From NCBI GenBank assembly GCA_903838705.1, contig CAILZL010000010.1, positions 62,001 through 126,000 of the forward strand: 64,000 nt of DNA, given 5' to 3'. Below are positions 7,773 through 42,769 of the stretch, one piece after another. Source of the stretch: an uncultured Pseudomonadota bacterium (GTDB lineage: Bacteria > Pseudomonadota > Gammaproteobacteria > Steroidobacterales > Steroidobacteraceae). Position 1 is the first letter of the stretch. Each line of letters starts with the position of its first letter. The position numbers and the translations under genes were made by a program. The notes under the pieces were generated by a model. The model was not told the DNA's origin. It ran no database searches and saw only the letters and a program-made list of their open reading frames with translations.

Positions 7773-8567
7773 TTAAATTGCCACTGCCGCCTTGATATGC
7801 GGGTGTGGGTCGTATTCGCTGATCTCGAAATCTTCAAACTGATATTCAAATATGGATGCAGGCCGTCGCTTGATGATTAACCTGGGCAGGCTGCGCGGCT
7901 CACGCGACAGCTGCAAGTCCGCCTGCTCAAGATGATTCAGGTACAGATGGCAGTCGCCGCCGGTCCAGATAAAGTCGCCCACCTGAAGATCACACTGCTG
8001 AGCAAACATATGCGTCAGCAAAGCATAAGAGGCAATATTGAATGGCACGCCAAGAAAGATATCCGCACTGCGCTGATACAGCTGGCATGACAACTTGCCA
8101 TCTCCCACCCAGAACTGGAACAGCGCATGACAGGGCGTTAAGGCCATCTGTTCCAGCTCCCCGACATTCCAGGCATTGACCAGAATTCGGCGGGAATCCG
8201 GATTGCGCCGGATCAGATCCACCGTCCGGCTGATCTGGTCGATATATCCACCATCTGGAGTTGGCCAGGTGCGCCATTGCCGGCCATAGACAGGACCGAG
8301 CTCACCCTGCTCATCGGCCCACTCATCCCAGATCGACACATTATTGTCTTTGAGGTAGCGGATATTGGTATCACCGCGCAGGAACCACAGCAGTTCGTAG
8401 ACAATCGAGCGTAGATGCAGCTTCTTGGTGGTCAGCATTGGAAAGCCGTCAGCAAGATTGAAGCGCATCTGATGGCCAAAGACAGAACGCGTACCGGTTC
8501 CGGTTCTGTCGGTTTTTATCAGTCCCTGGTGCCGTACCAGCTGCATCAATTCAAGGTATTGCCGCAT
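7773..8567 (-). CDS. thyA: Thymidylate synthase
   Basis: Methylates dUMP to dTMP using methylenetetrahydrofolate. The nucleophilic Cys is in [12 protein letters not shown], the phosphate-binding [19 protein letters not shown] follows, and the [13 protein letters not shown] stretch is conserved. 264 residues equals the usual bacterial enzyme. It is second in lgt-thyA-SET-folA-pgi, 62 bases after lgt; the lgt-thyA neighbourhood is common in gammaproteobacteria. Confidence 0.97.
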
Positions 8568-12623: not shown

Positions 12624-14681
12624 GTGGTGGACTTATCTGACAACAGCGCTGTGCCAATGGTTGTGCTGGCCAGCCAGCAGGAACAAGTTGAATTCATCAA
12701 CAGCACCCTGCGCAAGGTCGGGCATGCCGTACATTGCCACTGGGTCAATGAACTGAATGATCTGAGTGAAACGCTGACCCAGATCAATGCGCAGATGATA
12801 GTGGCCATTGTGGGTCAGGATGCCGGTGAGACCGCCACGACTCTGCAGGCCATCCGGCAACTCGCACCCGGCATCCCTGCCCTGCTGGTTCGGGAACAGA
12901 TCGACGAAAGCATCATGATCGAGGCCATGCAGGCCGGCGCCCGTGATGTGGTGAGCATGAGCAATCCCCAGCGCATGCAGGCGGTAGTCACACGTGAACT
13001 GCGCAGCTACCGGATCGAACACAAACTGGCTGCTGCGCTCAACTCGACCCAGGAATACCACGCACAGATCAAGCAACTGATGTCCGGCTCGGTGGATGCC
13101 ATCGTTCAGGTTCAGGAAGGCATCGTGATCAATCCGAATCCAGCCTGGTTGAAGCTGCTGGGTCATGACGATGCATCAGCCATGGAAGGTAATCCGGTAA
13201 TGGATTTTTTCGAGCCTGACTCGCATAACGCACTGAAAGGTGCGCTGGCTGCATGCCTGCAAGGCAAATGGGCGGGGCATGTGCTGAAAATCAACGCCCT
13301 GCTTGCCAATGGCAATCATCTGCCACTGGAACTGTTACTGCAGGCAGTGGAAATTGATGCCGAACCTGCTGTGCAACTGAAAGTTTCTGCAAATAAACAA
13401 TCTGAGCAGCCACTGGAAAGCCAGATGAGTGCTGCGCTGGAACGCGATGCCACGACCGGCTTCCTGCAATGGCGCTACTTTGTTGATCAGCTTCGCCAGC
13501 GACTGACTACGCCCATCAAGGCTGGAGTACGCGAACTGGTATGCATACAGCCAGATCAGTTTCCTGACACGCTGAAAGAAGTGGGCACAACCCGGATTGA
13601 AGAATACATTGCGCATTTCATCAGACCGGTCAAGGAACAGTTACAAAGCCATGATCTGGCCGGACGCTTCGGCAGCTCAATGGTTTTCGTGTTACTGGAA
13701 CGGGGCACACATAGTGACGTGGAAGCATGGTGTGCGAATGCCATTCGCAGAATGGCCGAGCAACCTTTCACAGCAAATGACAGATCGTTCAACTGTACGG
13801 GCATATCCAGCAGCGCGCGTATCACTTCCCACGCAACTGACATTGATTCGCTGATTAATGCAGCAATGCATGGCACAGACCCTGCTCAGGAGACGGCGCC
13901 TGAAACAGAATCAGAGAAAAAGCTTGATGAAGACACCCTGCAACAAATGAACGACAAGCTGTGGGTGAAACTGCTGAAATCAGCACTCATGGAAAACCGC
14001 TTCCGTCTGTTGCAGCAGCCTATCGTTACCCTGAATGGTGAAGACAAGGGCATGTTCGATGTACTGGTACGCATGCTTGACGAGTTGAACCAGGAAGTAC
14101 TTCCTTCGGAATTCCTTGCGGCCGCAGAACGCAATGACCTGATGAAGAATATTGATCGGTGGGTCATCGGTGCTGCGATTTCGTATTGCGGCACACGCAA
14201 GATCGGCAAACTGTTTGTACGTCTCTCCAGAGATTCCGTGCTGGACAAGTCCCTGCCCATCTGGCTCGACAATCAGTTGCGCGCCAATCGCATGAACCCC
14301 GGTCAGATCGTATTCGAGATCAGCGAGTCCGTAGCGAACGGGAATCTCAGCGAAACCATCGAACTGGCTACGCACCTGCACAAGTCCGGATTCTGCATGG
14401 CACTGGAACATGCAGGCACCTCTCCCAATGCAATTCAATTGCTCAACCATCTGCCGCTGGAATTCCTCAAGGTGGATGGATCATTGATGCAAACCCTTGC
14501 AACCGATATGCGCGCACAGCAGATCATCAGCGAGCTGGTCGCAGCCGCAAATAAACACAACATCAGCACCATCGCTGAGCGTGTTGAAGAAGCCAGTACC
14601 ATGGCTGTGCTCTGGCAACTGGGTATCGAATTTGTACAGGGATACTTTGTACATGAACCCGAGCGGGTCACGCTGGGTTAA
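12624..14681 (+). CDS. fimX: FimX-like protein: receiver-PAS-degenerate GGDEF-degenerate EAL
   Basis: FimX is a non-enzymatic c-di-GMP receptor that drives type IV pilus assembly. Residues 1-130 look like a receiver domain lacking a clear phospho-acceptor. A PAS-like segment follows (IVQVQEGIVINPNPAWLKLLG). The GGDEF site is replaced by GSS in GRFGSSMVFVLLERG. The EAL site is DVL, and the catalytic DDFGTG motif reads LEHAGTSP, yet QPIV, AERVEE and QGYFV remain. So it should bind but not make or cut c-di-GMP. 685 residues is close to the FimX length. Start is GTG with GAGG six bases upstream. No pilus genes are nearby, as for FimX in Pseudomonas. Confidence 0.78.
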   Translation: MVDLSDNSAVPMVVLASQQEQVEFINSTLRKVGHAVHCHWVNELNDLSETLTQINAQMIVAIVGQDAGETATTLQAIRQLAPGIPALLVREQIDESIMIEAMQAGARDVVSMSNPQRMQAVVTRELRSYRIEHKLAAALNSTQEYHAQIKQLMSGSVDAIVQVQEGIVINPNPAWLKLLGHDDASAMEGNPVMDFFEPDSHNALKGALAACLQGKWAGHVLKINALLANGNHLPLELLLQAVEIDAEPAVQLKVSANKQSEQPLESQMSAALERDATTGFLQWRYFVDQLRQRLTTPIKAGVRELVCIQPDQFPDTLKEVGTTRIEEYIAHFIRPVKEQLQSHDLAGRFGSSMVFVLLERGTHSDVEAWCANAIRRMAEQPFTANDRSFNCTGISSSARITSHATDIDSLINAAMHGTDPAQETAPETESEKKLDEDTLQQMNDKLWVKLLKSALMENRFRLLQQPIVTLNGEDKGMFDVLVRMLDELNQEVLPSEFLAAAERNDLMKNIDRWVIGAAISYCGTRKIGKLFVRLSRDSVLDKSLPIWLDNQLRANRMNPGQIVFEISESVANGNLSETIELATHLHKSGFCMALEHAGTSPNAIQLLNHLPLEFLKVDGSLMQTLATDMRAQQIISELVAAANKHNISTIAERVEEASTMAVLWQLGIEFVQGYFVHEPERVTLG

Positions 14682-39966: not shown

Positions 39967-40328
39967 TTGATTTCCATGTGTGCAGAGCAGCGATGGGCAA
40001 GCCTAGACACCCGGCAACCTGCTGACAATTGCTTCTTATCCCCTGCCTTGCTGGAATCAGAAGTCACACCCCCGAATCAGACATGACTTTCATTACGGGC
40101 ACATGAGTTACCACAGCGCAGCAGATGCTTTAGCCACTCTGGATGCTTACTCAGCCCGGAATACTGCATAGGGCGGGTTTTGTTTTTACATAAAACCACC
40201 CATATGTCCTGCCGATGCATTTACTATTGGCAATTACAGAAAAATCCAGCACCGCAGCCATTTTTCCGCTTGCAATTCCCACGGCAATTAATCATATTTG
40301 GTCTCAATTGATCCAAATGTGGTTTTAG
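39967..40328. other. Divergent intergenic region upstream of the DUF6502 gene
   Basis: 362 bases with no convincing gene. It contains a stem-loop at 40171-40201 (GGG and GGTTTT pairing with AAAACC and CCC around a T-rich loop), and at the right end the promoter/inverted-repeat element described separately. The middle 40020-40160 shows nothing I can name. Confidence 0.6.
40270..40321 (+). promoter_or_regulatory. Promoter with overlapping operator-like inverted repeat
   Basis: TTGCAA (40270-40275), 17-base spacer, CATATT (40293-40298) is a modest sigma-70 match. The -10 lies inside an inverted repeat CATATTTGG (40293-40301) / CCAAATGTG (40313-40321), 8 of 9 matched, with an 11-base centre holding CAATTG. 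A repressor bound here would block initiation; alternatively the arms fold in the short leader just before the ATG at 40329. Confidence 0.4.
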
Positions 40329-41153
40329 ATGGCCCTTGATTCCAAACAAGCCCTGCTTACCGCCTGTCGCAGATTACTGCGACCGCTGGCGCGCCTGCTT
40401 ATCAAAAGCGGCGTGTCATGGAAAGAATTTGCCGATGTATCCAAGGTTGCGTTTGTGGAAGTCGCCACGGAGGAATTCGGCATTCGTGGTCGTCCCACCA
40501 ACCAGGCGCGGGTAGCCATCCTGACTGGTATCAATCGTCGCGAAGTCGCGCGCCTGCGCGAAATCATCGAATCAGGCGAACAGGAAGAGCCACGTTATCT
40601 GAGTGCAGCGCAGCGCCTGCTCTCCGGCTGGCACCAGGATCCCGAATATCTGGATGCAGGACGCCCTCTGGTTCTGCCCCACAGCGGAGCTGCCCCGTCA
40701 TTCGCCAGTTTGTGTGAACGCTATGGCGGCGACATGCCAGTCACGGCACTACTGAAAGAACTCAAAGCAGTCAACGCGGTGGCTGAACAGGCTGATGGTC
40801 GTTTACAGGTGCTGACCCGCGTGTATATCCCGCAGGAAATTGACGGCGATCGCGCATTACGTTCCGGCAGCGTGCTGGAAGACATGGGTAATGTCATTAC
40901 TCACAACCTGATCAGCCCGCTAAGTGAACCCCGGCGTTTCGAGCGTCGTGCTGAAAACGATGCCATCGATCCCAAGCACTTGCCGGCATTCCAGTCATTT
41001 CTGGCTGATGAAGGTCAGGCATTTCTTGAGCGCGTTGACGACTGGCTGACGCAACACGAACAAACCGATTCAGAAAGTCCCGATGCCAAACGCATCCGCC
41101 TTGGTGCCGGGCTCTATCACATACAGAACCACAAGCCTAGAGGTCGCAAATGA
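40329..41153 (+). CDS. DUF6502 family protein (possible DNA-binding regulator)
   Basis: Resembles the DUF6502 family, whose role is unknown. The first 85 residues look like a helical DNA-binding unit: RLLIKSGVSWKEFADVSKVAFVEVA, then TNQARVAILTGINRREVARLREI, which reads as a helix-turn-helix. The rest (residues 90-274) is soluble and charged, with a C-terminal helix region ending RLGAGLYHIQNHKPRGRK. No signal or membrane segment. The stop overlaps the lipoprotein start by ATGA, so the pair is obligately linked. A regulator of the next gene or of itself is inferred from position and the upstream inverted repeat. Confidence 0.72.
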   Translation: MALDSKQALLTACRRLLRPLARLLIKSGVSWKEFADVSKVAFVEVATEEFGIRGRPTNQARVAILTGINRREVARLREIIESGEQEEPRYLSAAQRLLSGWHQDPEYLDAGRPLVLPHSGAAPSFASLCERYGGDMPVTALLKELKAVNAVAEQADGRLQVLTRVYIPQEIDGDRALRSGSVLEDMGNVITHNLISPLSEPRRFERRAENDAIDPKHLPAFQSFLADEGQAFLERVDDWLTQHEQTDSESPDAKRIRLGAGLYHIQNHKPRGRK

Positions 41154-42553
41154 ATACTCGCCCGTTTTTTTCTACAGTGCTGATGGCACTTGCGGCCCTG
41201 CTCAGCGCCTGCGGCGGTGATAGCCAGCTCGCCGGTATCAATGGCGGCGGGATTTCCAACGGCGGCACCAGTGACCCCGGTGTAGTGGTCGGCCCTATCA
41301 CGGGATTCGGCAGCATTTTTGTCAATGGGATCGAGTTCGATCTGAATGGCAGTACCGTAACGGTAGATGGCGTATCCAGCACAGGACAAACCGATCTGCG
41401 TATCGGCCAGATTGTCACGGTCAAAGGCAAAATCAATCAAAGCACCGGCATGGGCACGGCTGATAGCGTTGAGTACGGTAACAATCTGAAAGGCGTGGTT
41501 TCAGCTGTAGATACTGTTAACAATACTTTCACTGTCATTGGTCAGACGGTGACAGTCACGGGCACCACTGTGTTTGATGGAAGAACCGGACTCACTGACC
41601 TTGCGGCTAACGATATCGTCGAAGTGAGTGGCTTCGTGAATGCAACGGGGAAAATAGTGGCCACTCGCGTTGAACGTCAAACCACATCAGGCAGCTCTGA
41701 ATTGAAAGGCGCTGTTTCAAGCCTTGATACATTTCTGCAAACTTTCATGATTGGCACCACCAAAGTCAGCTATTTAGGCGTCGCGCTAGTTACTGGCGGA
41801 ACCCTTGCGAATGACGCATGCGTTGAAGTCAAGGGCGCTTACAGCGGGACCCAACTGAACGCCAGCAGCATTGAGGTTAAAAGCTGTGGCCTGTCTGTAT
41901 CAGCTAATGACATTGGCGAGATTGAAGGCATCATCACCACTTCACTAACTGGCTCCACCTTCACTATGGGTACATTGACGGTCAGCACAGCCAACACGCC
42001 TCAGTATGTGAATGGCACAACAGCCGACCTGCTGGCTGGTAAAGAAGTGGAAGTGGAAGGCACTTTCAATAGCAGCAATGTATTGGTGGCACGCAAGATC
42101 GAGATCAAACAGGGAACTGATGTGCGCATGACAGGCCTGGTTGATGTGGGCTCGGTCAATATTGCAGCAAAGACTTTCACCATGTACGGCGTCACCGTAT
42201 CGACCAATGCCAGCACACAGTTTGTGAACAAGCTGGGAAATTCGAATGACTCCTATTCTTTGATCAATTTGCAGGATAGTAACTTCGTCGAGGTGCGCGG
42301 TTATGAAAACGCAAGCCACACCGCAATGACCGCCGTGACTTTGGAGCGCAGAAATCCAGACTCGCGCTTGGAAATTCAGGCAACTGCGACCAATACAGCC
42401 CCATCAGCCACAGCTTTTTCACTGCTCGGAATTCCCGTCAGTGCTACCAGCTCAATTCTCATATCCAAGGATGACCATGTACGGGCGCGAGGCACATGGT
42501 CATCCGCAACCAGTACCTTTTCGGCAACCAGCGTGGAAAACAACGCATTCTGA
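41150..42553 (+). CDS. DUF5666 repeat lipoprotein
   Basis: Lipobox LLSAC (Cys at residue 21) after a hydrophobic run, so an anchored lipoprotein. A Gly/Ser linker is followed by GPITGFGSIFVNGIEFD and then five or six repeats of about 70 residues. Each has a pattern like G-x-V-x(5-8)-F-x-V-x-G-x-x-V-T-V ... L-x-x-G-x-x-V-x-V-x-G ... V-x-A-x-x-V-E, an OB-like beta barrel. Clear units begin near KGVVSAVDTVNN, KGAVSSLDTFLQ, EGIITTSLTGST and TGLVDVGSVNIA. 467 residues. No function is known; binding of metal, sugar or envelope polymer is open. Coupled to the DUF6502 gene. Confidence 0.8.
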   Translation: MNTRPFFSTVLMALAALLSACGGDSQLAGINGGGISNGGTSDPGVVVGPITGFGSIFVNGIEFDLNGSTVTVDGVSSTGQTDLRIGQIVTVKGKINQSTGMGTADSVEYGNNLKGVVSAVDTVNNTFTVIGQTVTVTGTTVFDGRTGLTDLAANDIVEVSGFVNATGKIVATRVERQTTSGSSELKGAVSSLDTFLQTFMIGTTKVSYLGVALVTGGTLANDACVEVKGAYSGTQLNASSIEVKSCGLSVSANDIGEIEGIITTSLTGSTFTMGTLTVSTANTPQYVNGTTADLLAGKEVEVEGTFNSSNVLVARKIEIKQGTDVRMTGLVDVGSVNIAAKTFTMYGVTVSTNASTQFVNKLGNSNDSYSLINLQDSNFVEVRGYENASHTAMTAVTLERRNPDSRLEIQATATNTAPSATAFSLLGIPVSATSSILISKDDHVRARGTWSSATSTFSATSVENNAF

Positions 42554-42601: not shown

Positions 42602-42769
42602 TCAATCTCCGCGCAGGTTCTTCATCAGGGTATTGACCGCAACCATCACCACCACAAACAGCAGCAGTGAAATGATCTGCGTAGCCAGCTCAGAAAAGTA
42701 CTGGCCAATAAAATGGCTGAGCCAGTACACAAGGGTAGCGGCAACAGCGATAGCAGGCAGCAGGGTCAT
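42602..42769 (-). CDS. Small membrane protein, 55 residues
   Basis: The ATG at 42769 has an excellent GGAGG site 6 bases upstream, which favours it over a longer frame to 42829. Two hydrophobic segments (LLPAIAVAATLVYWLSHFIG and IISLLLFVVVMVAVNTLM) with a short basic end KNLRGD. Unknown family. Convergent with the DUF5666 gene. Confidence 0.6.
   Translation of the reverse strand: MTLLPAIAVAATLVYWLSHFIGQYFSELATQIISLLLFVVVMVAVNTLMKNLRGD

Follow-up and report, generated by a model that had tools for sequence, protein, structure and literature searches.

A DUF6502 gene and a DUF5666-repeat lipoprotein gene, which overlap in the 64,000-nucleotide stretch of DNA analyzed here (the window), probably constitute a self-regulated, peptide-responsive two-gene operon in which the C-terminal domain of the DUF6502 protein reads a short motif of its exported partner. 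Comparisons of sequences among loci give good support to the operator and its connection to the recognition helix, and likewise to the link between the motif and DUF6502 and the coevolution of regulator and motif. We infer repression and direct binding, as well as what binding does to DNA and where regulator and motif meet. All of the evidence is computational, and the loci come largely from metagenome-assembled genomes. Two families without an assigned function would thereby gain a concrete mechanism, comprising an operator whose code can be read in part and a motif with a swappable recognition residue.

The first gene (40329–41153, forward strand) encodes a protein of 274 aa that matches PF20112 in Pfam over residues 7–270, with an E-value of 4.5e-49 and 167 bits against a gathering cut-off of 27. 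The second (41150–42553, forward strand) encodes a protein of 467 aa with five DUF5666 stretches (PF18914, E-value 1.7e-45, 153.6 bits, above the cut-off). The preliminary description of this DNA had claimed translational coupling, a lipobox, and five or six OB-like repeats, and these claims are borne out. The lipoprotein start overlaps the DUF6502 stop in an ATGA read at 41150–41153, and the lipobox, LSAC, occupies residues 18–21 of the lipoprotein (41201–41212, forward strand) and is kept in most partners of DUF6502 across loci. In the structural model of the lipoprotein (pLDDT 86.9), single DUF5666 repeats are OB folds according to VIA, with PilY2 at Z 9.6 and CusF at Z 8.7. Whereas the periplasmic OB-fold proteins CusF, PilY2, and CcmE are matched by single repeats (Z 7.5–9.6), the window lipoprotein carries at least five such repeats on a lipid anchor. 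A sequence search of the PDB returned no relative of either protein; the open-access literature searched held no mention of DUF6502, and DUF5666 appeared there in tables only. Convergent with the lipoprotein gene lies a possible 55-aa membrane ORF (42602–42769, reverse strand), and at its end it runs into a 10-bp inverted repeat, GAACCTGCGC...GCGCAGGTTC, a possible terminator of the operon.

The relatives found belong to Gammaproteobacteria. DUF6502 is present as a single copy in the host genome and occurs in 29 of the 40 genomes searched around it, being absent from three other genomes of the host genus; in a phylum-wide draw of 150 genomes it is rare (8). Conserved adjacency, by which the preliminary description had proposed to judge the pair, held. 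When loci were gathered through DUF6502 alone, a DUF5666 gene was located directly 3' in 47 of 53, frequently with the same ATGA overlap, and two of the six remaining loci are contig ends. Likewise, DUF5666 adjoins DUF6502 in all seven loci of the phylum-wide draw other than the window. The 40 relatives contain 29 DUF5666 loci, of which 19 are no more than 3 kb away from DUF6502; by chance this would be expected for approximately 0.2% for any one pair. A search of viral contigs yielded no DUF6502. Neighboring genes were considered as functional partners and dropped; given that the recurrent ones are housekeeping genes (smc-zipA-ligA; aroK-aroB-dgt; acyl-CoA ligase and GDSL lipase), they were counted as plain synteny.

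The predicted operator is a 31-bp palindrome at 40292–40322 (strandless, center 40307). Within it, the window carries the described inverted repeat, with arms CATATTTGG (40293–40301) and CCAAATGTG (40313–40321) pairing at eight of nine positions. On its own this repeat is not significant, as an equally good one appears in 18–39% of the region's dinucleotide shuffles; it was counted as real because it is conserved upstream of orthologues, a matching 31-bp palindrome occurring 5' of DUF6502 in 33 orthologous loci in addition to the window. The consensus among orthologues, of odd length, is approximately CCATAwwTGnGnTAwAwTnnCnCAwwTATGG. Paired positions covary (n = 34) at ±4 (27 pairs versus 8.6 expected), ±6 (31 versus 14.6), and ±10 (27 versus 14.4), and the ±9 pair also lies well above independence, while ±7 and ±8 are nearly fixed as TG/CA. 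When all ATG triplets of the same loci were scored, 88 of 12,339 scored as high, many of them being these operators or their reverse complements. Each genome examined has a single site: the host genome yields one palindrome even when three mismatches are allowed, and the core is likewise single in the G030 genome. A wider regulon was sought with the operator in the 40 relatives, the host's own genome, and G030, and was rejected, convincing matches being confined to DUF6502 genes. Where a DUF5666 gene precedes DUF6502, as in five loci, a palindrome was located at a distance of 1.4 to 2.1 kb on the upstream side of DUF6502, and in the two that were checked (L077 and L113) it stands in front of the first DUF5666 gene.

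In 31 of 52 orthologues the palindrome is centered precisely 12 nt ahead of the start codon, over a −10 box. A TTG box is found 22–27 nt before the center in 25 of these 31, and a TATAAT-like box often coincides with the center. Owing to the positions of these boxes, transcription is predicted to start a few nucleotides before the ATG, which would leave the mRNA nearly leaderless; a Shine-Dalgarno core was present in just one of the 31 loci. In the window, the start codon is 22 rather than 12 nt from the center, a downstream displacement of 10 nt, and relative to orthologues the promoter boxes are displaced upstream by about 11 nt. The probable window promoter (40270–40298, forward strand) consists of TTGCAA (40270–40275), a 17-nt spacer, and CATATT (40293–40298). 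The −10 box that the preliminary description had placed under the repeat is accordingly present, yet it is weak in consensus, and the promoter was not called by a scan at 9 of 12. Other palindromes of a GGG..CCC type with shorter spacers were observed in the upstream regions of the distant operons L140, L141, and L136 (CATAATGGGAAAAAATCCCATTATA; AATGGGAAAATTTCCCATT; ATGGGAATACAATCCCAAAT), and the two in L136 are alike. In L054, an operator-like palindrome, TTTGTATGTGGGGAGAATAACCCCAAATATGAG, at 13937 (score 25.4) lies about 6 kb from the DUF6502 gene and has no DUF5666 gene behind it.

The AlphaFold2 model of DUF6502, built with 52 sequences (pLDDT 88.7, pTM 0.72), comprises a DNA-binding N-terminal domain, a winged-helix-like unit at residues 125–161, and a C-terminal domain with two long helices. 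The helix-turn-helix-like N-terminus that had been suggested from the sequence reappears in the model as a predicted helix-turn-helix at residues 59–81 (40503–40571, forward strand). A search of a viral fold library returned nothing at E below 0.001. The association between this helix and the operator was examined in a non-redundant set of 36 loci by ranking 220 variable columns after overall divergence had been removed by regression. Residue 68 ranks first for base −6 and residue 71 first for base −4, while for base −5 residue 77 ranks first and residue 69 third; residue 74 is also among the residues associated with bases −6, −5, and −4. In terms of sequence, K71 accompanies TGGGG, an N or D at residue 69 accompanies TGGT, and L68 accompanies TGTG, and the outer operator bases show no association with the recognition helix. 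Given that half-site bases covary with its predicted recognition helix, DUF6502 itself is most likely the protein that binds the palindrome. Since the palindrome overlaps the −10 box and the start, the effect of binding is likely to be repression of its own promoter. The preliminary description had proposed a self-regulated, envelope-sensing or envelope-coating two-gene system; the self-regulated part is well supported, because adjacency, the helix-turn-helix, and conservation of the palindrome all held, whereas the envelope part gained no such support. The auxiliary flap helix of HetR also touches DNA. In the middle region of DUF6502, G133 ranks second for base −6 and may be a second DNA contact.

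The downstream partner carries a motif, G-I-x-[R/G]-[G/S/T/L]-G, behind the lipid cysteine. In the window it reads AGINGGGI, and its core GINGGGI (residues 29–35; 41234–41254, forward strand) is the proposed DUF6502 ligand; it lies in the low-pLDDT tether of the lipoprotein model. The motif thus resides in an exported protein while DUF6502 is cytoplasmic, a separation that speaks against the peptide-responsive reading. A regular expression modeled on the initial loci was then tried on 60 further loci, where it matched 30 of the 39 partners directly downstream, none of 14 upstream DUF5666 genes, and none of 20 unlinked DUF5666 genes (Fisher p 3e-6, linked versus unlinked); about a quarter of these held-out downstream partners lack the strict motif. 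In paralogous loci, some partners repeat the motif in tandem, with 4 to approximately 41 copies: RAIRGSGV about 18 times in L039, GIDGSGAST about 41 times in L040, SIQGTG 16 times in L055, GITGVG at least 34 times in L063, and GIIGSG 9–10 times in L058 and L066, with GIDEGGT in L041. Some partners have arrays at the C-terminal end, and the 84-aa partner in L050 consists of a signal peptide and six SILGSGAAPK, with nothing else. At least four copies of [ILVM]xG[STV]G were found in 11 of 1265 six-frame ORFs near DUF6502 and in none of 2794 elsewhere.

Coevolution between the motif and the regulator was analyzed in 89 regulator–motif pairs of less than 80% identity, corrected for divergence, over 256 columns. 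Motif position 3 and DUF6502 residue 206 show a partial correlation of 0.79, with the next best column at 0.43. This reflects a reciprocal swap in which a peptide G is paired with a regulator R in 51 pairs and a peptide R with a regulator G in 29, leaving one exception (80 of 81); the exception probably arises from wrong extraction of the motif in L057, the real repeat there being GQTGSDRL. Residue 206 and residue 207, which also covaries with the motif (position 2, D with R in 23 pairs), belong to the segment RRFERRA (residues 202–208; 40932–40952, forward strand) between the two long C-terminal helices. Weaker coevolution links motif position 4 to residues 175–182 and position 6 to residue 262. 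When columns 206 and 207 were left out of tree construction, five changes of residue 206, six of the motif, and six of their joint state were counted, while shuffled labels require at least 17 changes. As the joint state needs six changes against five and six for its parts, the changes are concerted, with about five switches; because support is low at some nodes, the independent events may number three to five. These patterns support the view that a C-terminal strand of DUF6502 binds the linked peptide motif in a HetR-like manner. The preliminary description had overlooked the motif and its coevolution with the C-terminal domain, and it is these two that point to a peptide switch of the HetR–PatS kind.

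HetR, together with PatS, HetN, and PatX, controls heterocyst patterning in multicellular filamentous cyanobacteria. Before the motif had been noticed, cyanobacterial HetR ranked first for the DUF6502 model in both Foldseek and VIA. The match to HetR 4j00 is moderate (VIA Z 8.4, rmsd 10.3, 217 residues aligned, model 7–268 versus 12–298); the top five VIA entries are all HetR and colinear at Z 7.4–8.4, with rmsd near 10 and Z near background. In a Pfam scan at E up to 1, DUF6502 gave its own family and a weak DUF2179 only, without a match to the HetR families PF03574 and PF18460, and a HetR sequence used as a control gave both families in the same library. Homology to HetR by sequence was also sought with hhalign, using three DUF6502 profiles (Neff up to 6.5), just two HetR sequences, and 80–87 decoys, without a significant result, the E-values of 0.73 and 0.045 falling within the decoy range; the deeper profile gave a colinear alignment ranking 9 among 80 decoys. 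Further HetR sequences were sought in plasmids and viral contigs, with none found there; Pfam HetR_C matched in no control genome, and its silence therefore carries no weight. The HetR query sequence agreed with PDB entries 3qod and 4hri. The order of HetR domains, DNA-binding, flap, and hood (PMC4649674), is compatible with the DUF6502 model, and a palindromic site and autoregulation are likewise proposed here. The HetR hood follows the order alpha-beta-alpha-beta, and PatS runs alongside its strand beta3; E253 is indispensable, and R223, where the hood begins, is also important (PMC4649674). DUF6502 shows a hood-like order of helix 173–195, segment 202–208 with E205 (present in 38 of 52 sequences), helix 215–242, and RLGAGLYHI, and it is to these elements that the residues coevolving with the motif map. 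Segment 202–208 may be the equivalent of the PatS-binding strand, an equivalence of topology and order only, as the monomer model shows no strands there.

The RG[S/T]GR core of HetR ligands (PMC7761841), shared by PatS, PatX, and HetN, resembles the xG[S/T]G of the partners, one of which, in L039, has RAIRGSGV. The pentapeptide itself was not found: the window has GINGGGI, L039 and L120 have RGSG without the final R, and L034 has GSGR. HetR has tens of targets in vivo and the site GGGnnnnnCCC (PMC4192349), whereas a single target is visible for DUF6502, and its palindrome is longer and varies among species; neither the palindrome in the window (CATATTTGG-N11-CCAAATGTG) nor the consensus (TGnG-N9-CnCA) follows GGGnnnnnCCC. 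The systems also differ in that the motif here resides within an OB-fold lipoprotein or tandem arrays, and in that DUF6502 belongs to Pseudomonadota rather than filamentous cyanobacteria. Given the lack of a HetR Pfam match and of significant profile similarity, together with the different DNA site, we state that the DUF6502 system appears to work like HetR–PatS and regard descent from HetR as evenly balanced. The peptide-responsive RRNPP regulators have TPR domains, and Gram-positive bacteria use lipoprotein-derived pheromones. Those systems similarly place a regulator beside an exported protein that possibly yields a peptide ligand; they differ in that the motif here follows the signal peptide rather than lying inside it, and the same Pfam scan (E up to 1) detected no TPR family in DUF6502.

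In the mechanism that we favor, DUF6502, presumably as a dimer, would bind a single dedicated 31-bp palindrome over its own promoter and would most likely repress that promoter; in most orthologues the palindrome reaches from the −10 box as far as the start codon. The co-translated partner would be exported with the short motif, GIx[R/G][G/S/T]G in its narrower form, soon after its lipid anchor, and the C-terminal domain of DUF6502 would bind this motif via the strand containing residues 205–208, as in HetR–PatS. Binding of the motif would alter DNA binding and so tie expression to the amount of the partner, its export state, or a released peptide. A version of this mechanism, less likely than not in our judgment, holds that DUF6502 binds the motif solely on the cytoplasmic precursor, so that backed-up export changes DNA binding and no peptide is released or taken up. 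The ATGA coupling and the position of the motif just after the lipobox would let DUF6502 meet the nascent precursor; however, partners made of a signal peptide plus repeats look more like multi-copy peptide sources, and arrays at the C-terminal end of some partners also speak against it. More broadly, we tentatively suggest that DUF6502 and its partners constitute a form of peptide signaling in Pseudomonadota related by descent to HetR–PatS. Exported precursors, each bearing between one and about forty copies of an xG[S/T]G-type motif, would supply peptides; these would find their way back to an autoregulator of the HetR fold, or encounter it in the cytoplasm, and switch its operon. Should the peptide mechanism hold, the HetR–PatS principle would extend to proteobacteria, where its natural ligands vary widely, and the origin of HetR would become easier to explain.

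Explanations that dispense with a peptide signal seem less likely. A plain autorepressor with a cargo gene, whose motif acts outside the cell in surface display, multimerization, or as a protease site without binding DUF6502, is consistent with the location of the motif in an exported protein, and the operator and helix evidence needs no peptide. Nevertheless, the motif is confined to downstream genes linked to DUF6502, and the swap between position 3 and residue 206, with about five concerted changes, counts against a purely external role, which should not couple to a cytoplasmic regulator; we consider this explanation unlikely. The envelope-stress or envelope-coating module of the preliminary description, responding to an unknown signal, would suit a lipoprotein with OB folds. 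It seems quite improbable, as no stress gene shares the operator in the 40 relatives or the host genome, and the neighbors examined are housekeeping genes or vary from genome to genome. Finally, the palindrome could act in RNA as a start-codon hairpin controlling translation, given that its right arm includes the start codon in 31 loci and that the non-Watson-Crick pairs at ±13/±14 are G-T in 11 of 11. From ±4 to ±10, however, just 4 of 34 such pairs are G-T, a central −10-like box would leave the left arm untranscribed, and the half-site bases covary with a protein recognition helix, making this the least plausible of the explanations weighed. The peptide-responsive operon remains our preferred reading.

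Several loci depart from the arrangement in the window. DUF6502 paralogues recur at two fixed sites, one following smc-zipA-ligA and the other next to aroK-aroB-dgt, in many cases with two or three copies that are tandem or convergent (L033, L039, L040, L045, L048, L050, L051; L055, L056, L058, L063, L066). The pair is also present in L106 and L088, titled Klebsiella pneumoniae and Rheinheimera tuosuensis, labels that look doubtful for what are metagenome bins. In L037, DUF6502 has two operators (7255 and 7382) and no DUF5666, and is followed at 8272–8562 by a 96-aa lipoprotein with IIKNGK repeats. In a Cellvibrionaceae assembly (L113:1451–3325), the first gene of an operon DUF5666-DUF6502-DUF5666 encodes a lipoprotein in which DUF5666 is joined to a cytochrome c-like domain at the C-terminus; this domain matches Cytochrome_CBB3 below its cut-off.
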